From the IMG/VR virus record IMGVR_UViG_3300042475_004926, positions 1-58,924 of that record: a stretch of 58,924 nucleotides of DNA; one strand, given 5' to 3'. Source of the DNA: a virus. Below, one piece after another: positions 6,058 through 56,577 of the stretch. The notes under the pieces are model-generated. The model was not told where the DNA came from and made no database searches. It saw nothing but the letters and a program-made list of their open reading frames with translations. The first letter of the stretch is position 1. Each line of letters begins with the position of its first letter. Made by a program: the position numbers and the translations under genes.

Positions 6058-6353
6058 AATGTTAACTTTTATTAACATTAATTTCCTGTTTCACAGTGGG
6101 TAAGACGGCTTAACACCATTCTACAAGCTAACACGGGCTAACTGCCCGCTTATCCCTAGTTAAAGGGGGTTTAACCCTGATTGATTAAGCTTGGTTTTTA
6201 CTTAACCAGTTTTTGTTGGGTTAAACCCAGTATAACAGAGAGTAGATTAAATGTCAAGAGGGTTAAGAAAAAACTTTTAGACTTTAACCTTAGTATAAAA
6301 CTACCGAAAATGTTAATAAATTTCAACAAAGGTGGGTCTAAAGCAGAACCCCC
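6058..6353 (-). promoter_or_regulatory. Promoter-leader cassette, full copy 1
   Basis: Reading leftward: upstream part with a TGTTGA...TTAACA inverted repeat, then TTGACA (-35) and TATACT (-10) 17 nt apart at 6229-6257, a GGGTTTAACCC palindrome at about +1, and a leader ending in an AATGTTAA...TTAACATT hairpin at 6058. The leader contains GTG-AAA-CAG-GAA-ATT-AAT-GTT, the micro-ORF MKQEINVNKS-stop. It points toward nrdB. Confidence 0.8.
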
Positions 6354-8822: not shown

Positions 8823-8851
8823 GTCTAAATCTTGCTCTTGGTGTTTTAACT

Positions 8852-8880
8852 ATTTTAACAGGGTTCAAAGGGTTTGTCAA
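8852..8880 (-). promoter_or_regulatory. Promoter for 8601-8822 and 8337-8576
   Basis: TTGACA, 17-nt spacer, TAAAAT on the minus strand; a GGGTTAACC site abuts the -35. Confidence 0.75.
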
Positions 8881-8924
8881 GGGTTAACCATTTTTAAAAC
8901 AGGTTAACCGTTAAAGAACTAGAG

Positions 8925-10475
8925 TTAGTCTCCGCCGCAAGCCTCACAGTACCCGTCACCAATGTTGCACACGGGTTGAACAGGGGTTGGGGTCGGGTCG
9001 GTTTCTCCAAATAACTCCGCAAATAAGTCGTCTACTTCGTCCATTTCTTTCGAGGGAAGATAACCTAATTTTTCTAGTGCCTCATCTGAAATATAGCCAG
9101 ATTTGTCATTTGCCTGTTGAAGGGTTGAGAGGCGATAATAGGTCGTTTTGATGTCCGCATCCATAAAGTCGTCAATGAACTGTTCATTGACAGGGCAAGT
9201 ATCCCAAATGTTGGCAGAAATCGAATGACCTAATCCAGTGGAATCCATCAACCGTTGCCATCCGTTCAGTAGTCTCCATTGAACGTCCCACCCTACTTCC
9301 GACGCAATTTCTACATCGGGATGAAAAGCGAACATTTGTGAACCAAATGTTTCGGATGTTCTTTCAATTTCCCGACCTAGCGGTGGGCTGATTTCAGGGG
9401 TGATTGCATACCCGTAGCGGTCGAAGTTTTTTGTGAAACTCGTTGCAGTTGGAGCTACAGTAAAGATTCTATCCATATTGTACTTACGTCCCACTACCGC
9501 CGCTTCCATGAAGCCTAGAGCTATTTTATGGACTAGGTAGATTGGTCTCGAACACCCCCCAATGAAATAGTCATTCCCTTCGTTCTCTTTGATGATGTCC
9601 TCCCGGAACCCTGAAGTTAGGATTTCGTATTCCTCTAAAGCATCGACAAATTCAGCGTATTTTACTTTTTGAGTCGCTAAAAACGATGCTAATCCAATAA
9701 CCCCCAATCCTATTTGTCGGTCTTCTTCAGGACTCAGGTATTGACCTGTCTCTCCCACACCGGTGATTGCATGGAGTTGGCACAGCCATTCTGCCCCTTC
9801 CCGATATGCTTGTGGGAAGTCTTCTGGCTCCAGTAATCCGTAATTTTCATTAGAGATTAGACAGGTAGCACGACTTTTTAAGGCCACTTCCGTACAGACT
9901 TGAAATAGTAGGCGGTCTCCGTTTTTGTCCCATATCTTTTTGGCTAACCAGATATTTCCTTTGTCCACCGCTTCAGCCAGTTTTTTCTTGATTGGGTGGT
10001 TCCGAATCCCTTCGTCCACATACACTGTCTGCTTTACCCACGCATTTGCAAACTCGTTTGCGTCAATAAATGCCTCAATGTCCGGGTGGTCGTAGTCTAG
10101 GTAAATGTTGCAAGCTCCGTTTTTGAAAATTCCCCCACGACGGAGAATTTCATTCATCTTAGAATAGAACTCCATAAAACTTACTGGCCCGGATGCCGTT
10201 AACCCTAACTCATTCTGAGTCCCCGCAGGTCTTAGATTCGATAGATTAATTGCTACTCCAGCCGCATTTCTTAATCCGTGACTCGTAAATAACCAAGAAT
10301 CTTCGATACCGTCTTTACCTTCCATACTGTCTTGGACATCGAACACAGTACAGCTAACAGGGAGTCGCCCTTGAGGTTGTTTACCCCAGTCCCTTACCCG
10401 TCCGGTAAGGGCTAATCCATAGGGTACTGTATTAAATAACTCTTTCTTTTTCTCGTTTCTTTCTTGTTCAAGCAT
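8925..10475 (-). CDS. nrdA: Ribonucleotide reductase, catalytic alpha subunit
   Basis: 516 residues, reducing ribonucleotides to deoxyribonucleotides. The first redox cysteine is in PVSCTVFD; SGPVSFMEFYSKMNEILRRGGIFKNGA follows; the active-site run is FQVCTEVAL (radical Cys and Glu), the second redox Cys is in ATCLISNENYG, then VAPTATSF. The tail has a C-E-A-C pair. TTYYRLST matches the paired tyrosines that carry the radical in class I enzymes, consistent with the beta subunit at 5018. The usual Asn two residues before the radical Cys is Gln here. There is no N-terminal ATP cone, so allosteric activity control is probably absent. Confidence 0.9.
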   Translation of the reverse strand: MLEQERNEKKKELFNTVPYGLALTGRVRDWGKQPQGRLPVSCTVFDVQDSMEGKDGIEDSWLFTSHGLRNAAGVAINLSNLRPAGTQNELGLTASGPVSFMEFYSKMNEILRRGGIFKNGACNIYLDYDHPDIEAFIDANEFANAWVKQTVYVDEGIRNHPIKKKLAEAVDKGNIWLAKKIWDKNGDRLLFQVCTEVALKSRATCLISNENYGLLEPEDFPQAYREGAEWLCQLHAITGVGETGQYLSPEEDRQIGLGVIGLASFLATQKVKYAEFVDALEEYEILTSGFREDIIKENEGNDYFIGGCSRPIYLVHKIALGFMEAAVVGRKYNMDRIFTVAPTATSFTKNFDRYGYAITPEISPPLGREIERTSETFGSQMFAFHPDVEIASEVGWDVQWRLLNGWQRLMDSTGLGHSISANIWDTCPVNEQFIDDFMDADIKTTYYRLSTLQQANDKSGYISDEALEKLGYLPSKEMDEVDDLFAELFGETDPTPTPVQPVCNIGDGYCEACGGD

Positions 10476-10541
10476 ATTTTTTGACTAGGGTAAAACCCTA
10501 GTTTGATAGGGTTTTTATTGGCTGATTATGGTTGTCAGGGG

Positions 10542-10838
10542 TCATTTTTCAATACCCCATTTCTCCGCTAATGCTTTCTGGGTGAACAATTGGGTTGCTA
10601 CCATATTACAGTACATATCGGAGTACATTCCTTTTAGTCGGTTGACAATTTTCTGTAAGTCTTCTTTCGGGAATCTAATGTGTGTTGCTGACGGGTCTTT
10701 ATCCATCGAGAACTCTGCCTCTATTGCTCTCAGCAGTAGCGATAGTTTTAATTGGTACTCTAGTGGCAGGTCTATTTGCGCTTCGACTAGCTTATGATAA
10801 TCATTATCATCTGGTCTTTCTGGTTCTAATACAGCCAT
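10542..10838 (-). CDS. Small acidic protein of unknown function
   Basis: 98 residues, helical, with leucine-rich segments (YQLKLSLLLRAIEAEF; DLQKIVNRLKGMYSDMYCNMVATQLF). I chose the ATG at 10838 because the longer frame begins at the TTG of the promoter -35 and would translate the promoter. It is first in a leftward unit ahead of nrdA, which starts 67 nt downstream after a CTAGGGTTTTACCCTAG stem-loop. Function unknown. Confidence 0.65.
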   Translation of the reverse strand: MAVLEPERPDDNDYHKLVEAQIDLPLEYQLKLSLLLRAIEAEFSMDKDPSATHIRFPKEDLQKIVNRLKGMYSDMYCNMVATQLFTQKALAEKWGIEK

Positions 10839-10869
10839 TTCAAGTTCTGGTTTTTGTTGGGTTAACCCC

Positions 10870-10898
10870 AGTATAACAGAGAGTAGATTGGATGTCAA
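10870..10898 (-). promoter_or_regulatory. Cassette-type promoter (short copy)
   Basis: TTGACA, 17-nt spacer, TATACT and the GGGTTAACCC palindrome, without the long leader. Drives 10542-10838 and probably nrdA. Confidence 0.85.
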
Positions 10899-10944
10899 GG
10901 GGGTCTAGAAAAAACTTTTAGACTTTACCTTAGTTAAAGGTGGT

Positions 10945-11112
10945 TTACCCCTTTCTGCCTTTTTTAAAAGCTTCCTCTACAGTCCTCGAAGCGGAATCTC
11001 TCTTTTTTTGATTGTCTTTTACTGCCCCAAACGCACGCTCTACTACGTTAGGACTCGATTTTTCTCTCTCTCTACGGTCAGGGCGACCGTCTCCACCGGT
11101 TGGCTTTACCAT
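10945..11112 (-). CDS. 55-residue basic protein of unknown function
   Basis: Starts MVKPTGGDGRPDRREREKSS and ends KKGRKG; very basic. AGGAAGAAACTAAG before the ATG is a good Shine-Dalgarno. It contains two similar units, VVERAFGAVKD and TVEEAFKKGRK. It lies 67 nt after the gene at 11180 in the same direction. The charge suggests nucleic-acid binding, but nothing more specific. Confidence 0.5.
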   Translation of the reverse strand: MVKPTGGDGRPDRREREKSSPNVVERAFGAVKDNQKKRDSASRTVEEAFKKGRKG

Positions 11113-11179
11113 CTTAGTTTCTTCCTGTATTCCATTATTGGACTGTCCACATCTGGTTTGGGCGGAAAATCACACTCCC

Positions 11180-11887
11180 CTAAAATGCCCTTACTTTTTG
11201 ACTTTCTACTACTTTAGCAGTCTCCACCACATAATCTTTTATCGAAAATTCATCTTTGAATCTCCCTCTCGCTCTGTCAGATTCCTCCACTACATGAACC
11301 CATCCCATCTTTTCACACTCCTCTTTTACCTTCCGTCCTCCCCCGTATACTGTGAAATAGATTTCTCTACTCTGGGCATGACGACAAGCCGTCTCATACT
11401 CCTCGTATGTTGCTTGGATTCTTTCACTATATCCATGTGTACAGTAGGCTTTCCACCCTTTCGGTACTCCTAATAAGGCGATTTCTTCAAACTCCGTCGG
11501 TACATTCAGGTCTACTAGGATTTTTATCCCCGCTTCCCCCCAATAACGGGATAACCATCTTTTTTGGAATATCTTCTGGATTGCTATTGCTTTTGGACTT
11601 TGTAAGGAAATCGTATAGTTTACTTCCCCCACTAAAGTTATCTCTGTTTCAATCAGTTTTGAGGGATTTTTCCAATGTCCCGACATTCGATAGTCATCAG
11701 TGTAATGGAATATTGTTCCCTTTAACTTATTCGTTCTTGCCTTTGCTCCCCAGATGTTTATTGGTAACTCTGGCCATTTTCCTTGCATATCTAAGCTCAA
11801 GACGGGTATTCCCCATTCATTATTTGTTGGGAATATCCAATTAATCACGTTATTCCCTATTGGATTTAATATTTCTTTAATTGTCAC
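11180..11887 (-). CDS. Protein of unknown function, possibly DUF4417-like
   Basis: 235 residues starting at a GTG behind AAGGGGAAAAAG. The middle (YWGEAGIKILVDLNVP...LLGVPKGWKAYCTHGYSERIQATYEEYETACRHAQSREIYFTVYGGGRKVKEECEKMGWVHVVEE) has the order of a predicted alpha/beta domain seen in small phage and plasmid proteins (DUF4417); I give that match from memory with low certainty. No catalytic motif is obvious. From 11888 to 12122 I see no gene. Confidence 0.55.
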   Translation of the reverse strand: MTIKEILNPIGNNVINWIFPTNNEWGIPVLSLDMQGKWPELPINIWGAKARTNKLKGTIFHYTDDYRMSGHWKNPSKLIETEITLVGEVNYTISLQSPKAIAIQKIFQKRWLSRYWGEAGIKILVDLNVPTEFEEIALLGVPKGWKAYCTHGYSERIQATYEEYETACRHAQSREIYFTVYGGGRKVKEECEKMGWVHVVEESDRARGRFKDEFSIKDYVVETAKVVESQKVRAF

Positions 11888-27682: not shown

Positions 27683-27975
27683 AATGTTAACTTTCATTAA
27701 CATTAATTTCTTGCTTCACAGTGGGTAAGACGGCTTAACACCATTCTACAAGCTAACACGGGCTAACTGCCCGCTTTACCCTAGTTAAAGGGGGTTTAAC
27801 CCTGATTGATTAAGCTTGGTTCTCACTTAACCAGTTCTTGTTGGGTTAAACCCAGTATAACAGAGAGTAGATAAAATGTCAAGGGGTTTAGAAAAAACTT
27901 TTAGACTTTAACCCTAGTAGAAAACTACCATAAATGTTAATAAATATCAACAAAGGTGGGTCTAAAGCAGAACCC
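27683..27975 (-). promoter_or_regulatory. Promoter-leader cassette, full copy
   Basis: TTGACA-17-TATACT at 27854-27882. Upstream part: CTAC/GTAG hairpin and TGTTGATA...TATTAACA repeat. Leader: GGGTTTAACCC, a CGGGC-AGTTA-GCCCG hairpin, the micro-ORF MKQEINVNES-stop and a terminal AATGTTAA-6-TTAACATT hairpin. It drives the unit from 27653 leftward. Confidence 0.85.
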
Positions 27976-32820: not shown

Positions 32821-33050
32821 AATGTTAACTTTCATTAACATTAATTTCCTGTTTCACAGGGGGGTAAGACGGCTTAACCCCACTCCACAAGCTAACACGA
32901 GCTAACTGCCCGTTTACCCTAGTTAAAGGGGGTTTAACCCTGATTGATTAAGTTTGGTTCTCACTTAACCAGTTTTTGTTGGGTTAATCCCAGTATAACA
33001 GAGAGTAGGTTAGATGTCAAGGGGTTTGAGAAAAAACTTTTAGACTTCGG
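32821..33050 (-). promoter_or_regulatory. Promoter-leader cassette, copy without a nearby target gene
   Basis: TTGACA-17-TATACT at 32992-33020, GGGATTAACCC, conserved leader, micro-ORF MKQEINVNES-stop and the AATGTTAA...TTAACATT hairpin. The next leftward gene starts at 32365, over 450 nt beyond the leader. Its upstream part diverges after about 33045. Confidence 0.8.
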
Positions 33051-34442: not shown

Positions 34443-34471
34443 ATCTTAGCAAGTCCCAAGGTTGATGTCAA
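34443..34471 (-). promoter_or_regulatory. Promoter for 33939-34415
   Basis: TTGACA, 17-nt spacer, TAAGAT; it overlaps the end of the gene at 34468. Confidence 0.7.
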
Positions 34472-35253
34472 GAGCTTGCTAGGATTTTCTCTTTTTGGGT
34501 TAACTGATAACTGATTGCTGACAACTGACAACTGACAACTGATAACCGACTATTGTCGCAGACTACCCGAAAACCGTAATCGTCGTCGTAGTTGCGGCGG
34601 CTGTCGTAGAAACGGAAAGCGGAACGGCAGTAATCCGGATTGCTGAACCAAGAACCGCCCCGCAGACATTTTTTAGTCCAAGAACGATTATCACTATCAA
34701 TCCACGCCGTGCCATCATCCTGCGCTCCAATATAGTCCCCGTGCCAATTGTCTTCGCACCACTCCCAAACATTACCACTCATGTCATACAGTCCCCAACC
34801 ATTGGGCTTTTTCTGTCCTACAGGATGAGTTGTACCATTAGAATTTCCACCAGACCAAGCGTAATTTCCTGACTGATTATCATTATTACCAAAATAATAG
34901 CGAGTAGTAGTCCCCGCACGACAAGCATACTCCCATTCAGCTTCTGTAGGAAGACGATAATTTTTCCCTGTTATTCGACTCAATTTCTGACAAAAAGCTT
35001 TGGCATTGTTCCACCTAACCTGTTCTACTGGATTTTGGGGTCTGTTTTTAAAGCTTGAGGGATTGTTCCCCATTACTGCTTGATATTGTGCCTGAGTGAC
35101 AGGATATTTCCCAATAGCAAAACTGTTGACTTGAACTTGGTGTGGAGGCTTTTCATCCTCGCTTTCAGAAGAACCCATGAGAAAGTTACCTGCTGGTAAG
35201 CCTACCATTTCTAGTGTTACCCCATTGGCTAGTTTTTCGGTAAATTGGTTCAT
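34468..35253 (-). CDS. FGE-fold (C-type lectin-like) DGR-type variable protein 1
   Basis: 261 residues of the formylglycine-generating-enzyme sulfatase family: MVGLPAGNFLMGS, then YPVTQAQYQAVMG, RLPTEAEWEYACRAGT, GLYDMSGNVWEWC and RGGSW...CRSAFR...GFRVVC. The C-terminal fold is the one diversified by retroelements in cyanobacteria. The variable region is at 34558-34665. After GFRVVCDN the reading frame runs through a host-type ACTGATAACTGA repeat before stopping. It contains 27 residues (DNWHGDYIGAQD...) absent from its neighbour. Role probably ligand or receptor binding. Confidence 0.85.
   Translation of the reverse strand: MNQFTEKLANGVTLEMVGLPAGNFLMGSSESEDEKPPHQVQVNSFAIGKYPVTQAQYQAVMGNNPSSFKNRPQNPVEQVRWNNAKAFCQKLSRITGKNYRLPTEAEWEYACRAGTTTRYYFGNNDNQSGNYAWSGGNSNGTTHPVGQKKPNGWGLYDMSGNVWEWCEDNWHGDYIGAQDDGTAWIDSDNRSWTKKCLRGGSWFSNPDYCRSAFRFYDSRRNYDDDYGFRVVCDNSRLSVVSCQLSAISYQLTQKEKILASS
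34558..34665 (-). repeat. Variable region 1 (DGR-type)
   Basis: Compared with 35302-35411, differing codons keep their third base and change mostly in the first two (TTC/GGC, AGC/AAC, GAT/GTT, TTC/TGC, TAC/ATC, GAC/AAC, AGC/AAC). That is the pattern left when AAC or AAT template codons are mutated at adenines. Both ends (CTGCGGGGCGGTTC and GGTTTTCGGGTAGTCTGC) are invariant. Confidence 0.75.
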
Positions 35254-35295
35254 TTTCTTACTCCTAAGTGTTTTGTTCTGACAACTGATTACTGA

Positions 35296-35919
35296 TTAAT
35301 GGCAGACTACCCGAAAACCGTTAAAGTAGTTGCGGGGGACGCGGCGGTTGTTGATGAAACGGCAAGCGGAACGGCAGTAAACCGGATTGTTGCCCCAGGA
35401 ACCGCCCCGCAGACAACTATCTTCGCACCACTCACAAACATTGCCGTGCATATCGTACAATCCCCAAGCATTGGGTCTTTTCTGTCCTACAGGATGAGTT
35501 TTATCCTGAGAATTTCCGTAATACCAAGCGTAATCTCCTAACTGATTATCATTATCACCAAAATAATAGTGAGTAGTTGTACCTGCTCGACAAGCATATT
35601 CCCATTCTGAATTTGTAGGTAGGCGATAGTTTTTCCCTGTTATTTCACTTAATTTTTGGCAAAAATCTTGAGCATCGTCCCAACTAACTTGTTCTACTGG
35701 ATTTTGGGGATTATTTTCAAAGTAAGAGGGATTGTTCCCCATTACTGCTTGATATTGTTCCTGAGTAATGGGATATTTGCCAATTGCAAAACTGTTTACT
35801 TTAACTTGGTGTTGAGGCGCGTCATAGTCCGACGCATCACCCATGAGAAACTCACCTGCTGGTAAGCTTACTACCCCCAGTGTGACTTGATGGGGTAGTT
35901 TTTCGGTAAATAGGTTCAT
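35296..35919 (-). CDS. FGE-fold DGR-type variable protein 2
   Basis: 207 residues, paralogue of the gene at 34468, about as long as the core domain. Same motifs: LPAGEFLMGD, YPITQEQYQAVMG, RLPTNSEWEYACRAGT, GLYDMHGNVCEWC, RGGSWGNNPVYCRSACR...GFRVVCH-stop. It ends directly after the variable region. Leader ACACTTAGG before the ATG is shared with protein 1, so the duplication included the leader. An IsrB left-end stub forms its 5' untranslated region. Confidence 0.85.
   Translation of the reverse strand: MNLFTEKLPHQVTLGVVSLPAGEFLMGDASDYDAPQHQVKVNSFAIGKYPITQEQYQAVMGNNPSYFENNPQNPVEQVSWDDAQDFCQKLSEITGKNYRLPTNSEWEYACRAGTTTHYYFGDNDNQLGDYAWYYGNSQDKTHPVGQKRPNAWGLYDMHGNVCEWCEDSCLRGGSWGNNPVYCRSACRFINNRRVPRNYFNGFRVVCH
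35302..35411 (-). repeat. Variable region 2 (DGR-type)
   Basis: Partner of 34558-34665. One codon longer in the segment after CGC-CGC. No third, template-like copy and no reverse transcriptase were found in the window. Confidence 0.75.
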
Positions 35920-36391: not shown

Positions 36392-37828
36392 CTAATATAT
36401 TGTAGCAGGTATTGGTTTTAGATGTTGAGGGACTTTAAGGGATTCTATAATCCCCAAAGTTAGAGCAAAATGTTCCTTATCTTTAAAATAAAATTCCGCC
36501 ATATCTTTAGGACTAGCAAATCGTTCTATACCCATTGAAATTACTTCTGTGGAGGGGGAATTTTTATAAATTTTACCCACATAGGGGTGAACCCAGTTTC
36601 CGGGGTAAGCCACTTCGCCAGCAGGATAACCCTTTATTTGCTTAAGTTCATCTGAAGTTCTATTTTTAGCTAAAAATTCCTTAGCTAAGTTGGCAAATTT
36701 AGGGTCAGACCCTTCCAGCAGGTGTGCCGCTTCATGAAAAACTGAGGGTTTAACATCATTGGAACGGGTTACAGATATAGAAAGATAATTATTTTTTTGG
36801 GGTTCTTGTGCATCGAATCCAGCCCAACTTCTTTTTTTTTCGCTGAGTCCAATACGGGGGACTAAGTTGTTCAGAATCCCCCCTGTAAGTTTATGAAATT
36901 CAGCCAAAGCCTTACTAATTACAGGAGTGTGAGTTTTATAGATAGGGTCTTCAGTATTGGCTGGTTTAAGATTTTTAGTGTATTCACCTATTTGAAAATT
37001 AGTTTGTCCCACTAGGAGGTCAGAGTTTACAGAATTATTATTATCAAGCAGTTCTTGATACAATAAGTTCATCTGTTTCTCAAGGTAAATATCAAGAGAC
37101 TGCTTCAGTTTACGTTTTCTAGCAAAAAGTTTTTGGGCTTTTTCAACGTCTTCAAGGTTTTTAGGGTCTAAAGATTTTATCTCCGCATTGATTTGGGCAT
37201 CTTGAGTTTCAAAAACTTTGACAAGTCTATCCAGTTTAAACTGGGAGATTTTAGATTTTGCAGAATTAATAGTATCAGTGTACTCTTTGGAAACCTGTTT
37301 AGGAGTAGTTGGTTTTGGCTCTGCGGGTTCTGGTTTAGGGTCTAAGTTTTTTTGAGTGGAGCCATACTTAGAGCTTATTTCTTGTCCTCTCTGGGTATAT
37401 TCTTCCAGGGTTAAATTCTTTTTCTCAACGGGTTTAGTACCTTTTGCTACAGTTGGTACATAATCAGTTGGTGTAGGTTTAGCCGATTCAGGTTTGGAGG
37501 AATCCAATAATTGTTGTTTTAAAGCATCACGAACCCTTTGTCTAAATTTGGCGAAAGGGGAGGGTGGTTTAGTTTTTTTAGCCTCGGAAGAAGTGGGTTT
37601 AGTGGCTTTTTTCCTATCTTTTTGGGGCTTAACCACATCAGGTTTAGTAGCCCATTTACCAGTCAAGGGGTCACGTTTGTGCTTAGAGGGGTCAAAAATA
37701 AAAGCTTCCCCTTTGACATTAGTACCTTTAACAACCCCCATACCATCTTTAATATTACCGCCACGGGATTTCTGGGGGTCTAGGGGGAAATTAGGGGAGT
37801 TTAATTTTCTACTTTTGCGTCTGGCCAT
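36392..37828 (-). CDS. Zinc-metallopeptidase-like protein
   Basis: 478 residues from ATG 37828 (MARRKSRKLN...); a longer frame overlaps the divergent gene at 37960 and is rejected. The first 200 residues are basic and proline-rich with many Lys, and the next 100 form coiled-coil helices. The C-terminal domain has SVFHEAAHLLEGSD (H-E-x-x-H zinc site) and STEVISMGIERF (possible third ligand Glu). This arrangement occurs in phage morphogenesis and polymorphic-toxin proteins, so it may be a virion-delivered peptidase. Substrate unknown. Confidence 0.65.
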   Translation of the reverse strand: MARRKSRKLNSPNFPLDPQKSRGGNIKDGMGVVKGTNVKGEAFIFDPSKHKRDPLTGKWATKPDVVKPQKDRKKATKPTSSEAKKTKPPSPFAKFRQRVRDALKQQLLDSSKPESAKPTPTDYVPTVAKGTKPVEKKNLTLEEYTQRGQEISSKYGSTQKNLDPKPEPAEPKPTTPKQVSKEYTDTINSAKSKISQFKLDRLVKVFETQDAQINAEIKSLDPKNLEDVEKAQKLFARKRKLKQSLDIYLEKQMNLLYQELLDNNNSVNSDLLVGQTNFQIGEYTKNLKPANTEDPIYKTHTPVISKALAEFHKLTGGILNNLVPRIGLSEKKRSWAGFDAQEPQKNNYLSISVTRSNDVKPSVFHEAAHLLEGSDPKFANLAKEFLAKNRTSDELKQIKGYPAGEVAYPGNWVHPYVGKIYKNSPSTEVISMGIERFASPKDMAEFYFKDKEHFALTLGIIESLKVPQHLKPIPATIY

Positions 37829-37959
37829 TATAAAATTGGGAAAATGATGCTTCTGTTCAGGACATTGGGCGTATAGGGTTTTATCAATACCAATCCTGTT
37901 AAGCATAGATTTTCCCCTATGCGCCCAAAGATTAAGGTAGGGATTGCGGGGAAACCAAT

Positions 37960-38358
37960 ATGGAACCAATAAAAGTTAACATATTAATAAGACAAGGAGC
38001 CAGCTATAGGGGTAAATCTTTACTATTGGCGGGTGACTATAGTGACTGGGAGTTCGCTTGGCAAATTAAGAGAAAACATAAGGGAACACTATTGGCAGAA
38101 GGAGACTTTGAAATAGTTAATGATGATTTCCTAATAGGGAGCGTCAACTATGAGAACCACACATTAATAACTCCAATTATGGTTTATCAGACCACAACCT
38201 TATTACCGGCGGCAATGGGGAATATAGTTGGGAGGGATGCTTGGGTATATGACTGTGAAATGAAGTCCCCCGATGGGCTAATTGTACACAGATTTTTTGA
38301 AGGATTGGTTAATGTTAGCCCAGAAGTGACTACGGAGGTAATTCCCGATGGCAATTGA
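37960..38358 (+). CDS. Protein of unknown function, possible virion protein
   Basis: 132 residues, beta-rich: KVNILIRQGASYRGKSLLLAGDYSDWEFAWQIKRKHKGTLLAEGDFEIV, a pattern like small phage beta-sandwich proteins. The start overlaps the divergent frame of the metallopeptidase-like gene. Coupled to the next gene (overlap of 11 nt). Confidence 0.5.
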   Translation: MEPIKVNILIRQGASYRGKSLLLAGDYSDWEFAWQIKRKHKGTLLAEGDFEIVNDDFLIGSVNYENHTLITPIMVYQTTTLLPAAMGNIVGRDAWVYDCEMKSPDGLIVHRFFEGLVNVSPEVTTEVIPDGN

Positions 38359-44943: not shown

Positions 44944-46041
44944 TTAGTGAGAAACAATTAAACCGTTAGAACGACGAATTAACTGAATCTTGCTAACAGC
45001 TATTTGTCCTAATCGTTTCCAATTGGTATCGCTTACAGATAGCTGTTTTTCGGTATCTCCACTTACATAACCAATCCCTTTGGGAGAAGAAACTAAATCT
45101 CCTTTACGGAACCCATGTCTTGTGGTAGAGCCACCATATTTACGTCGTTTACCACCTTTAGAAAAAACCATCAGGTGAAGTTGACGACGACTAATAGGAG
45201 GACGTTTGATGACAGCAAAGGGAGCGTTTGTTACTGTAACATAACCCTTCCAATCATATCCATGTCCATTAGAAGTATGGAATGGCAAATAATCTAAAAA
45301 TTGAAAACAGGCAAGAGCAATTCCATCGTTAGCATGACTTTCTGGTGATTGTTCTGCTTTATTTTTGGACTTTTCTAGTCGCAAATGCTTTCTGAGATTA
45401 GAGGTTTGCCAACCAAAGCGAGTATGGACTGTTGCCAATTGAGACAGTTGCTCAATAGCCCATTTTTGTCCAACCATAACCGGCGAGAAACCTTTTCCAG
45501 ACTTAGCCCCTTTTCTACCAGAAGTTAAATCAACATCGGCTTTGACATACTCAAAGTAAATGTCAGTAATTGGATAGATTTTGGTTAGTTCGGAAACGAC
45601 TCGAAGTTCAAGTTGACGATTAGCTCTGATTGAGGGAGCTAATTTTCCTGTTCTTCTATTTGAAAATCGTTTTTGTCGATGCGCTCTTAGATTAAAAGGA
45701 AGTTGGCGGTTAATCCGTCTTCCTCTACGTCCTCTTCGCATTAAGCACCGATTTTCCATGCGCTCTTTTACTCGTTTAAAAGGAAGTTCTAAGTGAGCCT
45801 TCCAAAGAGTAAAAAGAGAGGATTGAACGCCAATTCCAGAGAATAATTTACCCGGGTCAATACCAATGGCAATCGGTTGGGTTTTGTTATCGGAAGGTTC
45901 ATCGGTTAGCTGGACATAGAAAATATCTAAGTCGTTGAATTTGCCGATAGCTTTTCCTTCCTTAATCCACCGTCTAGCCCGACTGGGTTTGGTGGGCATT
46001 AACGGTTTTCCGTCTTTTGAGATAACAGGAACTCTTGCCAT
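44944..46041 (-). CDS. isrB: IsrB RNA-guided nickase (IscB family without HNH)
   Basis: 365 residues from ATG 46041 (MARVPVISKDGKPLMPTKPSRARRW): the PLMP motif and RRXRR region open the protein. RuvC-I IGIDPGKLFSG (D62), an Arg-rich bridge helix (RRGRRGRRINRQLPFNLRAHRQKRFSNRR), RuvC-II IYFEYVKAD (E164), RuvC-III SHANDGIAL (D239). Only about 75 residues separate RuvC-II and -III, with no HNH domain, which defines IsrB as opposed to IscB. The catalytic triad is intact. IsrB nicks DNA guided by an omega-RNA encoded upstream. Confidence 0.88.
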   Translation of the reverse strand: MARVPVISKDGKPLMPTKPSRARRWIKEGKAIGKFNDLDIFYVQLTDEPSDNKTQPIAIGIDPGKLFSGIGVQSSLFTLWKAHLELPFKRVKERMENRCLMRRGRRGRRINRQLPFNLRAHRQKRFSNRRTGKLAPSIRANRQLELRVVSELTKIYPITDIYFEYVKADVDLTSGRKGAKSGKGFSPVMVGQKWAIEQLSQLATVHTRFGWQTSNLRKHLRLEKSKNKAEQSPESHANDGIALACFQFLDYLPFHTSNGHGYDWKGYVTVTNAPFAVIKRPPISRRQLHLMVFSKGGKRRKYGGSTTRHGFRKGDLVSSPKGIGYVSGDTEKQLSVSDTNWKRLGQIAVSKIQLIRRSNGLIVSH

Positions 46042-46258
46042 GGAGATAATCCTTAAGAGTAAAGTTAATGTCCCTTTCCGCAACACAATCAAGATGTCTT
46101 GTCTAACAACGCTTTACCAATAAAGCTGAGAGGTAATCCGAACTAGGGAAGCATTCGGAGGTCTGTGCCAGATTGTGTCTCGATGCGGTAGTCTCTACTT
46201 GCGTCGCCTAAATTGGTTTAGGCAAGCCCCGTCGCTTTTAGGGCGGGGTTAGTGACCA
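46042..46258 (-). ncRNA. Omega-RNA region of the IsrB element
   Basis: Non-coding, directly upstream of isrB and downstream of the left end. GC-rich hairpins are visible: CCCCGCCC...GACGGGG and GCCTAAA-CCAA-TTTAGGC. The scaffold is expected here, with the guide 5' of GGTCACTAACC, that is, in the flanking gene sequence near 46259-46275. Read from the promoter at 46399. Exact ends are inferred. Confidence 0.65.
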
Positions 46259-49635: not shown

Positions 49636-50352
49636 ATGTCTAATTTATCTTATAACGGACAAATCATCGAACAGCGTCAGACCGATAACTATGTCAATCT
49701 GACGCAAATGGCTAAAGCTAATGATGTAGTGGTCTATGAATTTACCCGCAGTGAATTTGCCACGGGATACCTGAAAGCCTTACAGGAGTCCATTAACGGA
49801 AAATCTCCGCTTATAATGGTTAAAGGTTTCGGTGCTGATAAAACCACTTGGGGTCACCCTTTAGTAGCAATTGCTTTTGGTCAGTGGATTAGCCCAGAGT
49901 TCCATGTTTGGTGTAACCTAAATATTCAAACTCTGATGACTAACGGTACAGTTAGTCTGCCCCTAGTAGTACAACCTAAATTAGCAAGCGAAGAAAAGGC
50001 AGTTAAGGTAGCTGAGGCTGTCCACCACATTCAAACACTACTATCCGTCAATAACCCCCGATTAGCGCAATTCTTGATTGACCATGCTATTTCCGATTTA
50101 ATGCCAAGTCAGGCTACTTTAACTGGGGATTCCTTGCAAGGGGTTGTCGAGATTGCCTTAGAAATGGGATTTAACCCTTCCCATGATAATCGGTCTCAAC
50201 TTGGAAAATACGTTAAAAAGAGTTGTCGTCAACTAAGTCAACAAGAGAAACGGTTAGTCAACGGGGCAATGCGAGAGATAGCAGTTTATCCGGCAAATCA
50301 CCCAGAAGTGAGAGAGGCAATAGAAGGATTTTTCAGCACTATAAACGGTTAA
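49636..50352 (+). CDS. KilA-N domain protein 1
   Basis: 238 residues. The first 110 (NYVNLTQMAKANDV, FTRSEFATGYLKALQE, VKGFGADKTTWGHPLVAIAFGQWISPEFHVWC) are a full KilA-N DNA-binding domain. The C-terminal part is a predicted helical dimer region with a basic end. KilA-N proteins are usually phage regulators or antirepressors. It and the next gene are tandem duplicates with identical upstream regions. Confidence 0.9.
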   Translation: MSNLSYNGQIIEQRQTDNYVNLTQMAKANDVVVYEFTRSEFATGYLKALQESINGKSPLIMVKGFGADKTTWGHPLVAIAFGQWISPEFHVWCNLNIQTLMTNGTVSLPLVVQPKLASEEKAVKVAEAVHHIQTLLSVNNPRLAQFLIDHAISDLMPSQATLTGDSLQGVVEIALEMGFNPSHDNRSQLGKYVKKSCRQLSQQEKRLVNGAMREIAVYPANHPEVREAIEGFFSTING

Positions 50353-50371
50353 CGATACAAAATAAAACATT

Positions 50372-50407
50372 AACCACCTTGACGGGTGGTTTTTTTGTTG
50401 CTATAAT
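50372..50407 (+). promoter_or_regulatory. Overlapping terminator and promoter, copy 2
   Basis: Same unit as 49571: AACCACC...GGTGGTT, T tract, TTGACG (50379-50384), 17-nt spacer, TATAAT (50402-50407). Confidence 0.8.
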
Positions 50408-50436
50408 AAACAGGATACCTATTTCTGGACTAAACT

Positions 50437-51141
50437 ATGTCTAATTTATCTTACAACGGACAAATCATCGAACAGCGTCAGACTGATAACTATGTTAATC
50501 TGACGCAAATGGCTAAAGCTAATGATGTTCAGTTAAAACATTTCAATGAAAGTGAGTTTGCCAAAAAGTATCTGAAAGCCTTACAGGAGTCCATTAGTCG
50601 GGATTCCCGACTTATGGAAGTTAAAGGTTTCGGTGCTGATAAAACCACTTGGGGTCATCCTTTAGTAGCAATTGCTTTTGGTCAGTGGATTAGCCCAGAG
50701 TTCCATGTTTGGTGTAACCTTAACATCCAGACCCTAATAACTAAAGGGTCTGTAAGTTTAGCCCCCGTAGAACAGCCTCAGTTACCCCCGAATAAAGTAG
50801 CCCTAGAGATTAGTCGGGACGTGCGAGAAATTACGGATAACCTAACGGACAACCCAAGATTAGCCCAATTCTTAATTGACCATGCGATTTCTGGCATTAT
50901 GCCAAGTCAGGCTACTTTAACTGGGGATTCCTTGCAAGGAGTTGTTGAGATTGCACTAGAAATGGGATTTCAAGTTGACCACAGCAGTCGGTCACAGCTT
51001 GGGAAGTTTGTGAAAAAACTTTGTGGTCAACTTAACCAACCTGAGAAACGGTTAGTTAACGGCACAACACGAGAAGTTGCTTGTTATCCATCAAACCACC
51101 CTGAAGTGAGACAGGCTATAACAAACTTCTTCACTAAATAA
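50437..51141 (+). CDS. KilA-N domain protein 2
   Basis: 234 residues, paralogue of the gene at 49636. The KilA-N domain is nearly identical from residue 1 except for a block at residues 32-58 (QLKHFNESEFAKKYLKALQESISRDSRLME) where sequence diverges. That block would be the part that reads DNA, so specificity may differ. The C-terminal half is more diverged. Confidence 0.9.
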   Translation: MSNLSYNGQIIEQRQTDNYVNLTQMAKANDVQLKHFNESEFAKKYLKALQESISRDSRLMEVKGFGADKTTWGHPLVAIAFGQWISPEFHVWCNLNIQTLITKGSVSLAPVEQPQLPPNKVALEISRDVREITDNLTDNPRLAQFLIDHAISGIMPSQATLTGDSLQGVVEIALEMGFQVDHSSRSQLGKFVKKLCGQLNQPEKRLVNGTTREVACYPSNHPEVRQAITNFFTK

Positions 51142-53860: not shown

Positions 53861-53943
53861 TACCTTTAGCCATAATTAAATCTTATCGCTAGGTTAAGCC
53901 CCCATCGCCCAATCTAAGACAGAAGCGATTGAGCGTAGAGAAA

Positions 53944-56577
53944 ATGGCAAAACCTGGAAAATTAAAATTATATTTACACCCTGGACAACAAGAAGTATTC
54001 GGAAACCCTGCCAGATTCAAGGTTTTGGTCTCATCGAGGAGATTTGGGAAAAATTTAGAAGAAAACACCCCTATTTTGACCAAAAATGGTTATAAACCGA
54101 TTAAGGAAATTTTCACTGGGGACACTGTATATAATGAACAGGGTTTACCTGTAAAAGTTTTAGCGGCTACCGAGGTATTTGAAGATGATTGCTACGATAT
54201 TGTCTTTGAAAATGGACAGGTTATCAGAGCAGGGAAAAACCATGAGTGGGTTTTGGAGCTAAACCGTAAGTTAGAGTCTAACACATGGACTACTGAGGAA
54301 ATATTCTATTACCATCAAAACATTCAAAAGGGAAGTAAAAAACTTAATTTATCTGTTCCTCGTAAAATTTTGCATCCGTGGGAAAGCTTTTTTATAGCCG
54401 ATGTAATCCCTGTTGGAAGACATCGAACTAAGTGTATTCAGGTAGAAGGAGGGATTTTCCTATGTAGTAAGAGTAATATCCCCACCCATAACTCCCGGCT
54501 ATTATTGACTACTTTAATCGAAAGGGCTATTAATTACAACGGCAACTATGATAAAGCTTCTCCCCCCGTCGTTTTGCTCGTTATGCCTAGCTTAAAACAG
54601 GCTAAACAAATCCACTGGGAACCACTTGTAAATATTCTAGATGGACACCCAGCAGTTAAAAGAATTTTTAAGTCTGAATGCAGAATCGTTTTTAAAGGAA
54701 ATAAACCAGACATCATCCTCAGAGGAGCCAATGAAGATAACGGCGATAATATGCGGGGGTTGAAGATATATTTTGCTGGATTAGATGAGATGCAAGATAT
54801 AAAACCCATTGTATGGACGGAAGTGATTCGCCCTGCTTTAGTTGATACTAAAAATAGTACATCTTTAATTATTGGCTGTGTTAATCCTAATACAAAAGTA
54901 CTAACTCCCACTGGAATCAAGGAAATTAAAGATTTTGACTCCGATACAAAAGAGAAAGAGTATTTACCCATTTCTGAGGACATCTATGGAATAGGTAGAG
55001 AGTTCCACAAAGCAGATGGCTTCTTTAACAATGGTATCGTGGAAACGAGAAAAATCTCAACCAACTATGGGTTTACTTTAGAATCCTCCCTGAACCACCC
55101 TATTTTAACCAAAGATGGATGGAAGAAAACGGGTGAACTGGAAGTTGGGGATAAGGTAGCCATAGACTATGGGATGGAAGTCTGGGGGAACATTGACCCC
55201 CTAGCTGATTTTGAAGGGACTGGGACTGAGATAAACGGCTTAAGTATTTCAGGTGGGATGACTGAGCAGTTAGCCCATTTCTTAGGGTGGGGCATAGCAC
55301 AAGGGAATTTTGCCAGTGCTTTTCATAATAGCGATGATTTAGGGAAATTCCTGAACCTGTTAAAGCACTTAGGTATGCGAAAGTTTTTCCCTAATAATCA
55401 GGTGATACCCTCTTGGTTGTGGAACGGAAAAAGAGAGTGGGCTGTGTCTTTTATAAAGGGATACATAGTAGGGGCGGGTTTGAGGGATGACCAAAAAAGA
55501 ATAGTCCTCAGAAGCCCGTCAAAAGAGCTTTTAAGAGAGATGCAATTACTACTGACTAATTTAGGGGTAGTGGCGTGTCTTGGAGGGGATGGGCTGGTTT
55601 TAAACGGGTTTAACCCCGGTGAACCCTTAAAAAATCAAGACTATTACTGGGATACAATCAAAACCCTTGAACAATCAGAATGTCAGACTTTTGATTTCAC
55701 CATTCCAGAAACCCATTCTTTCTGGTCTAACGGGTTTATCAGTCATAATACGCCCAAAGGGGCAGGTACATTTTTCCATAGTCTCTACCTACAAGGTGGT
55801 GAAGTTCCTAATTGGGCTAGTTTTTTAAAGACAGTTTATGATAATCCCTTTATTCCCCTTGATGAAATCCAAAGAACCAAAGAGTCATTACCCGAAAAAA
55901 TCTTTAGACAAGAATTTTTAGCATCTTGGGAATCTTTTGATGGTCAGATATTCTCAGATTTAGATAAGAGACACTTACTGGATGATGATGATTTACCGAC
56001 AAAATTTGACCAAGTATATATCGGAGTGGACTGGGGAGATGTGAATCCTGCCCTAGTAGTGGTGGGAAGACGAGGAGCCGCTTATTTTGTGATTGATTGT
56101 TGGGAAAATCCCAACCCTAAAGCGGCCATTGAACAACGAGTCCACAATGAGAAAGCCATTGAGTTAGCCAGAACGCATGGTGTCAACCGTGGATATGCTG
56201 ACCCGTCACAACCAGGAAGAATTTTAACCATGAGAAAAGCGGGTGTTCCCAAGTTAATGGAGGGCTATAATAGGGTATCAGAAGGTAATGGGGTGGTTAA
56301 CACTTTATTACACCAAGATAAACTTTTTATTGCCAAATCCTGTAAAAGGGTTTTTGAGGACATGACTGCATATCACCGAGAGTCTAAAGAAGGGAATGTT
56401 ACCGAGAAAGTGGCTGAAGGGCAAAGAGACCATTTTTGCGATGCTTTGCGTTACGTTTTGGCTACTTTGGAGCATCGGAATATTGAGAATATCATCGATA
56501 GTATGGGTGCAAATACCCTAATACCCAGTGTCCCCCAAGATGATAGTCTCTACGGGAATTATAATTCTGGCTATTAA
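53944..56577 (+). CDS. terL: Terminase large subunit with two inteins
   Basis: 877 residues from ATG 53944 (TTG 53929 is another start). Exteins joined: LYLHPGQQEVF...VLVSSRRFGK + SRLLLTTLIE (Walker A split by intein 1), then FAGLDEMQD (Walker B), then SLIIG + TPKG (motif III split by intein 2), then IGVDWGDVNPALVVVG, YADPSQPGR and DHFCDALRYVL (RNase H-like nuclease with D residues). After splicing the enzyme is about 439 residues, the usual TerL size. It packages DNA with the portal downstream. Splicing is required because intein 1 breaks the ATP-binding loop. Confidence 0.95.
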   Translation: MAKPGKLKLYLHPGQQEVFGNPARFKVLVSSRRFGKNLEENTPILTKNGYKPIKEIFTGDTVYNEQGLPVKVLAATEVFEDDCYDIVFENGQVIRAGKNHEWVLELNRKLESNTWTTEEIFYYHQNIQKGSKKLNLSVPRKILHPWESFFIADVIPVGRHRTKCIQVEGGIFLCSKSNIPTHNSRLLLTTLIERAINYNGNYDKASPPVVLLVMPSLKQAKQIHWEPLVNILDGHPAVKRIFKSECRIVFKGNKPDIILRGANEDNGDNMRGLKIYFAGLDEMQDIKPIVWTEVIRPALVDTKNSTSLIIGCVNPNTKVLTPTGIKEIKDFDSDTKEKEYLPISEDIYGIGREFHKADGFFNNGIVETRKISTNYGFTLESSLNHPILTKDGWKKTGELEVGDKVAIDYGMEVWGNIDPLADFEGTGTEINGLSISGGMTEQLAHFLGWGIAQGNFASAFHNSDDLGKFLNLLKHLGMRKFFPNNQVIPSWLWNGKREWAVSFIKGYIVGAGLRDDQKRIVLRSPSKELLREMQLLLTNLGVVACLGGDGLVLNGFNPGEPLKNQDYYWDTIKTLEQSECQTFDFTIPETHSFWSNGFISHNTPKGAGTFFHSLYLQGGEVPNWASFLKTVYDNPFIPLDEIQRTKESLPEKIFRQEFLASWESFDGQIFSDLDKRHLLDDDDLPTKFDQVYIGVDWGDVNPALVVVGRRGAAYFVIDCWENPNPKAAIEQRVHNEKAIELARTHGVNRGYADPSQPGRILTMRKAGVPKLMEGYNRVSEGNGVVNTLLHQDKLFIAKSCKRVFEDMTAYHRESKEGNVTEKVAEGQRDHFCDALRYVLATLEHRNIENIIDSMGANTLIPSVPQDDSLYGNYNSGY
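54052..54492 (+). other. Class 3 mini-intein in the Walker A motif of TerL
   Basis: 147 residues, from NLEENTPILTKNG to IPTHN, with extein Ser next. Residue 1 is Asn, not Cys or Ser. The W-C-T set of class 3 inteins is present: Trp in NHEWVL (block B), Cys in TKCIQVEG (block F), Thr in IPTHN (block G). There is no endonuclease domain. The block F Cys would start splicing in place of residue 1. Confidence 0.8.
54877..55749 (+). other. Class 1 intein with decayed LAGLIDADG domain in TerL
   Basis: 291 residues. Starts CVNPNTKVLTPTG (Cys1), block B SSLNHPILTKDGW, and ends ETHSFWSNGFISHN with Thr next. The two LAGLIDADG helices AHFLGWGIAQG and SFIKGYIVGAG lack the acidic residue at the usual catalytic position (Q and A). 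Splicing residues are intact but endonuclease activity is probably lost. Confidence 0.85.

Follow-up and report, generated by a model that had tools for sequence, protein, structure and literature searches.

Two FGE-fold genes and their variable regions

On the minus strand of the window, the whole 58,924-base linear fragment of viral DNA analysed here, two neighbouring genes encode stand-alone proteins of the FGE/C-type lectin (CLec) fold. Gene A (34468-35253, minus strand) specifies 261 amino acids with a match to the FGE-sulfatase family (PF03781, E 3e-55), and gene B (35296-35919, minus strand) specifies 207 amino acids with a match to the same family (E 2e-43). The nearest solved structure to gene B by sequence is Treponema variable protein 1 of Treponema denticola (TvpA, 2Y3C; E 2e-31), a DGR variable protein that has the FGE-like CLec fold of A and B but is cellular and has its own DGR. 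The variable region (VR) of gene A spans positions 34558-34665 (minus strand; 36 codons, one fewer than in B and in the host templates), while that of gene B spans 35302-35412 (minus strand; 37 codons, equal in length to the host templates). Each VR lies at the 3' end of its gene, about 29 codons (A) or one codon (B) before the stop, and overlaps the C-terminal part of the FGE fold, so that both genes combine a CLec/FGE-type fold with a 3'-terminal VR in the manner of DGR variable proteins.

The two VRs have common 18-base ends, CTGCGGGGCGGTTCYTGG and GGTTTTCGGGTAGTCTGC. The 3' end, GGTTTTCGGGTAGTCTGC, lies at 34558-34575 in A and at 35302-35319 in B (both minus strand) and is identical in the FD4 and G048 host templates; the 5' ends, CTGCGGGGCGGTTCTTGG in A (34648-34665, minus strand) and CTGCGGGGCGGTTCCTGG in B (35395-35412, minus strand), also form the 5' start of host templates. 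A sequence-only reading of the window had singled out two FGE-fold genes with invariant VR ends, and the open reading frames, the PF03781 matches and the shared ends all agree with it. That reading had also counted seven aligned codons that differ only in their first two bases. The constancy of the third base was upheld, but the count was too low: when 36 codons are aligned, with a one-codon gap placed in A, 14 differ, and base 3 is kept in 13 of them, the sole exception being a TCT/TCC pair. Upstream of the VRs, where 70 of 169 aligned codons differ, base 3 is kept in only 27/70 (Fisher p = 5e-4 against 13/14). The VRs of A and B thus share a recent silent background that the rest of the two genes does not.

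Comparison with a host template (G049) placed most of the changes on template adenines: 15/30 adenine sites and 3/70 other sites are changed in VR-B (p = 3e-7), and 16/30 and 3/78 in VR-A (p = 2e-8), the non-adenine differences being few and mostly silent. As a positive control, the VR on the FD4 plasmid differs from its own template at 14/29 adenine sites and 0/71 others, and the pooled set of 54 distinct phage VRs differs from templates at 823/1556 adenine sites against 383/3718 others. These results agree with the earlier suggestion that an AAC/AAT template had been copied with adenine mutagenesis, since real host templates exist and A and B match them apart from changes that fall mostly at template adenines, as in DGR targets. 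Judged by their sequences, A and B are confirmed as FGE/CLec-fold proteins with DGR-type variable regions.

An account without any DGR, in which duplicated genes came to differ through positive selection on exposed residues, draws on known DGR variable proteins, where the variable residues make up the part of the fold that is exposed and binds ligand. We consider it barely credible. Changes concentrate on host-template adenines, VR silent sites match the host template, and pyrimidine-ending codons end in C in 20/30 and 22/31 cases in the VRs versus 27/107 and 28/92 in the cores.

A cellular template and reverse transcriptase

In Crocosphaera and in a unicellular cyanobacterium, a pattern scan of genome contigs located templates that adjoin a reverse transcriptase (RT) and Avd. 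Plasmid p1FD4 of Microcystis aeruginosa FD4 carries an RT 86% identical to these RTs, together with a template, and two further Microcystaceae genomes have templates of the same length and register as that of FD4; template-bearing genomes of the family other than FD4 were treated as Microcystis-like. Reliance on host DGR machinery had been guessed from the window, and template, RT and Avd were indeed found in p1FD4 and other Microcystaceae genomes, with the RT carried by 7 of the 50 Microcystaceae genomes searched. From the template matches, the host of this phage is likely to be a Microcystis relative. No host template was found that matches A and B exactly, with CCG as its fourth variable codon, and no donor VR identical to VR-A or VR-B was found either; the source template is predicted to combine this CCG with GCT-TAC-CGT and a GTAGTCTGC end.

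In the products of most of the host genes examined, a Ser/Thr kinase precedes the FGE domains, which number one, two or five. In one host protein (L112 1794-6785, genome G057), a kinase domain is joined to five FGE domains that each have a separate variable region; the internal VRs of this protein lack the 3' element described below and may be retired. On p1FD4, a second DGR target with avd (L047 8834-12900) has an IS66-type insertion in place of the RT. The locus at 8834-11319 of this plasmid was considered as an RT-less DGR and rejected, given the IS insertion after avd and the intact RT and template elsewhere on the plasmid.

The absence of an RT from the window, as previously noted, was substantiated by the lack of any RVT_1 match in the 58.9-kb record. 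It had also been proposed that the phage might carry an RT elsewhere, that is, that its own DGR RT and template sit in a part of the genome missing from the fragment. The record is linear and relatives reach 72.9 and 90.6 kb, so room for such genes exists, but no RT was found in those two relatives or elsewhere among 45 related viral records (22 and then 23 more, two of the latter re-examined). Likewise, a DGR RT query had no match in eight complete Microcystis phage genomes (Ma-LMM01, MaMV-DC, DL01, DL02, DH01, CH01, CH02 and Mic1), all eight of which have related FGE genes. Templates were sought in 2.9 million viral contigs with three patterns, the third added because the first two required AAC at the first codon, which is often missing in Microcystis templates; neither these contigs nor the viral relatives of the source record yielded a match, and a hidden third template-like copy within the window was discounted, since only A and B match. 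An RT in the phage is thereby ruled out on all records searched, and a phage-borne DGR appears very improbable. A complete DGR, with RT and template in the same genome as the target, was not found for this phage; the source record is a fragment, and absence from the whole phage is judged from its relatives.

Sequences bordering the variable regions set the phage genes apart from their host counterparts. A conserved 3' element (GGGAG-ACTCT-TAACCC or CCCCAGGACTTTAACCC, in shorter form GGGAG-ACTCT or CCCCAGGACTTT) comes after every one of the 21 host C-terminal VRs, and 18 of the 21 have a CCCGCC..GGCGGG hairpin downstream. The ends of several host templates carry this element in a slightly altered form, the relation expected between an initiation site and the matching part of a template, and by analogy with Bordetella phage BPP-1 the element may be the initiation site needed for retrohoming. 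In BPP-1, the corresponding downstream elements are needed for efficient homing (PMC3240598), and loss of the downstream repeat impairs activity without abolishing it (PMC12875486). The shared 18-base ends are present in VR-A and VR-B, though neither VR has the 3' initiation element or the downstream inverted repeat. In gene A, the tail after the VR (34468-34557, minus strand) has the phage-type start GACAAT followed by TTATCAGTTGTCAG-type repeats, with no host GGGAG-ACTCT element, while gene B ends with CATTAA straight after its VR (35296-35301, minus strand), again with no host 3' element.

Both the 3' element and the hairpin are missing from 51 of 52 distinct phage genes. The one remaining case, a host-like FGE gene on a phage contig (L155 209-1165), has both in complete form; it is probably a fresh capture, although its position close to the end of the stretch leaves room for an assembly join instead. 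The phage-specific gene end TGYGACAATTAG, or similar, occurs in 71 viral stretches and in 0/50 Microcystaceae genomes, and recognition of the phage 3' end by a separate host DGR was rejected on this count; the phage-type VR end also takes the form GACAATTAG. Gene A retains the host-type linker between FGE core and VR (34669-34746, minus strand), while gene B has lost it next to the VR (CEDSCLRGGSW), as have most phage genes; deletion was seen in 0/20 host linkers listed.

Probable capture, inheritance and replacement of the variable regions

Several comparisons trace the phage genes to the host. The closest DNA to gene A is a host FGE domain (L100; 87.2% identity over 627 bases), any other phage gene reaching 83%. 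Phage proteins consist of the FGE domain alone, whereas in most host proteins it is fused to a Ser/Thr kinase. A tree of the cores nests phage genes among host genes in several places, with seven label changes, at least two of which are forced by well-supported branches, and one large clade from Ma-LMM01-like phages forms a monophyletic group whose genes have multiplied into arrays of as many as about six. VR-A and VR-B carry the silent bases of the host template.

The contrast between VR-A and VR-B had suggested that the phage proteins are actively hypervariable, an idea dropped after close phage relatives were compared. Where core silent divergence stays below about 15%, phage genes mostly retain the same VR, and the changes found lie mainly at codon position 3: L001 and L003 differ by 17 third-position changes upstream and by one silent change in the VR, and L022 and L024 (at 7480 and 2128) have VRs distinguished solely by four third-position changes. 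In the nearest relatives of the source record (L120-L125), the flanks are about 92-99% identical to it, and the FGE genes at the same place only 82-85%. Two of these strains, 99.5% identical over 16.8 kb, differ in a 300-base tract with 16 changes at all codon positions that extends into the 5' half of the VR, the mark of gene conversion. The 3' half of VR-A is largely common to the first FGE gene of L120, a likeness due to descent. VR haplotypes that differ at adenine positions between near-identical genomes were not seen in the phage relatives compared, and these sequence comparisons do not support ongoing VR mutation in the phage at the strain level. Two outcomes had been named as evidence against the original DGR reading, changes spread over all codon positions in related sequences and the lack of a template repeat in phage or any host; the first does occur at short range, which counts against active hypervariability of the phage proteins, and host templates were found.

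Inheritance is not the whole history of these regions. Across 52 genes, the silent distance of phage VRs to host templates averages 0.15 against 0.27 for cores to the nearest host core (p = 1e-6); non-independent rows and sparse sampling of hosts make this p-value too small, but the difference runs consistently one way. Constraint is not the cause, since very old VRs (L043, L034) drift freely at silent sites, and the younger silent sites of the VRs indicate replacement after capture. A simple frozen-fossil account, with a single capture and no later change, is weakened by this comparison. Fresh VRs lie between phage-specific borders in L018 and L174.

The explanation that best accommodates these findings, to which we assign a probability of roughly 0.6, is that A and B are captured and reshuffled phage-borne copies of host (Microcystis-type) DGR-written sensor domains, with inherited VRs, and that they possibly serve as decoys. 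Comparison shows host RT and Avd copying an AAC-rich template into the 3' ends of kinase-FGE genes, with random changes at template adenines. The second step, which is strongly supported, is uptake of the FGE domain without the kinase by phages, more than once, A and B descending from such captures. As the absences show, captured genes lost the 3' element and hairpin of host C-terminal targets, and many of them the linker before the VR, in phages that have neither RT nor template. The relatives show VRs that are now inherited under purifying selection, with gene conversion among FGE genes and not ongoing mutagenic retrohoming. Replacement by fresh host-written VRs occurred occasionally and is itself shown; its agent was most likely recombination with host or phage FGE genes. 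Counting against capture and recombination, the silent distance of the VR remains below that of the core even where both VR borders are phage-specific, because a VR-limited swap is expected from retrohoming and is awkward for ordinary recombination.

A possible, though doubtful, alternative is that the host DGR rewrites phage VRs in trans during infection, rarely and by way of the shared 18-base ends, with inheritance between events; diversification would then be left to the host. The younger silent sites of VRs fit this proposal, as do VRs that depart from a host template at 0-2 non-adenine sites and lie in genes with phage-only borders, such as L018 and L174, and the VR of L001, where 12/29 adenine sites and 0/61 others are changed relative to the G049 template. 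L001 and L165 are nearly identical upstream (2/160) and have different VRs, and the L155 gene on a phage contig retains the complete host 3' element and hairpin. Against rewriting in trans, VRs are conserved among close relatives, 51/52 phage genes lack the host 3' element, and only 7/50 Microcystaceae genomes searched have the RT. Furthermore, VR changes among relatives often fall in the 5' half and leave the 3' half intact, the reverse of partial retrohoming, which is primed at the 3' end and should change that end first. Recombination was seen directly; retrohoming in trans was not seen.

Relation to known systems and other features of the record

The closest parallels to A and B are cyanobacterial DGRs with remote variable proteins, comprising kinase-CLec proteins and solo CLec paralogs (Vallota-Eastman et al., 2020; PMC7517822), which have the same fold, a 3'-end VR, adenine-limited variation, targets far from the RT and the kinase-CLec architecture of the host genes. 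In those systems the targets reside in the RT-bearing genome, whereas here they are found in phages, without the host 3' element and with phage-specific borders. In phage DGRs such as those of Bordetella phage BPP-1 (mtd) and the Bacteroides hankyphage, too, the target is a phage gene that has a CLec-type variable region and adenine-based codons, but there the phage itself encodes RT and template and the varied product is a receptor-binding tail protein, while here RT and template are absent and the genes are host-derived. That DGR targets can be remote from the RT within a single genome is known (PMC7517822); surveys of DGRs search next to the RT and, by their own account, miss remote targets (PMC8144416). 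In the open-access papers searched, we found no paper joining Ma-LMM01 with DGRs and no description of phage target genes written by a host DGR. A phage gene set annotated as 'kinase' or 'hypothetical' in Ma-LMM01 and MaMV-DC turns out to have been written by a cellular DGR.

Kinase-FGE proteins have been proposed as diversified sensors (PMC7517822; PMC10907252), and the DGR-diversified putative antigen sensors of multicellular bacteria are variable CLec sensors fused to effectors, including kinases, in proposed conflict systems (PMC10907252). Those sensors are cellular, while the phage copies consist of the sensor part only, and this difference gave rise to the idea of a decoy. Captured domains would act as stand-alone ligand-binding domains, plausibly as decoys or dominant-negative partners of host kinase-FGE sensors, a role suggested by purifying selection, by arrays in several phage types and by the kinase-FGE source. 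If solo domains do block host kinase-FGE proteins, this would be evidence that the latter act against phages. The fuller proposition, that lytic cyanophages maintain target-only sensor genes that are rewritten in trans by the host DGR and whose products are diversified decoys against host kinase-FGE sensors, seems to us unlikely; if true, the phage would be turning the host's own hypermutation system against the host. A cultivable system is at hand in Ma-LMM01-type phages and the DGR-bearing strain FD4.

Several other features of the record were noted. Beside the FGE pair, a gene at 36392-37969 (in a relative, L124 13102-16401) contains one metalloprotease-like unit of the FHEAAHLLE/FHQMAHILE type, of which relatives have three, with no Pfam match. 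Two tandem KilA-N genes (49636-51141; KilA-N match in the first) have near-identical leaders and form another recently duplicated pair. A gene of the RRXRR family (44944-46092; PF14239) has about 120 end bases that are 94% identical to Ma-LMM01, the phages being otherwise unlike. The large terminase gene (53929-56577) is interrupted by an intein (PF14890, 2e-11, with a weak LAGLIDADG match), and two intein-like insertions can be discerned by eye in its ATPase part. Finally, a dispersed non-coding repeat, GGTTAACCCCAGTATAACAGAGAGTAGATTAGATGTCAAG, occurs with longer forms (e.g., 6058-6277, 27683-27902 and 32821-33040) and about 14 shorter copies, and is perhaps a repeated promoter or regulatory element of the phage.
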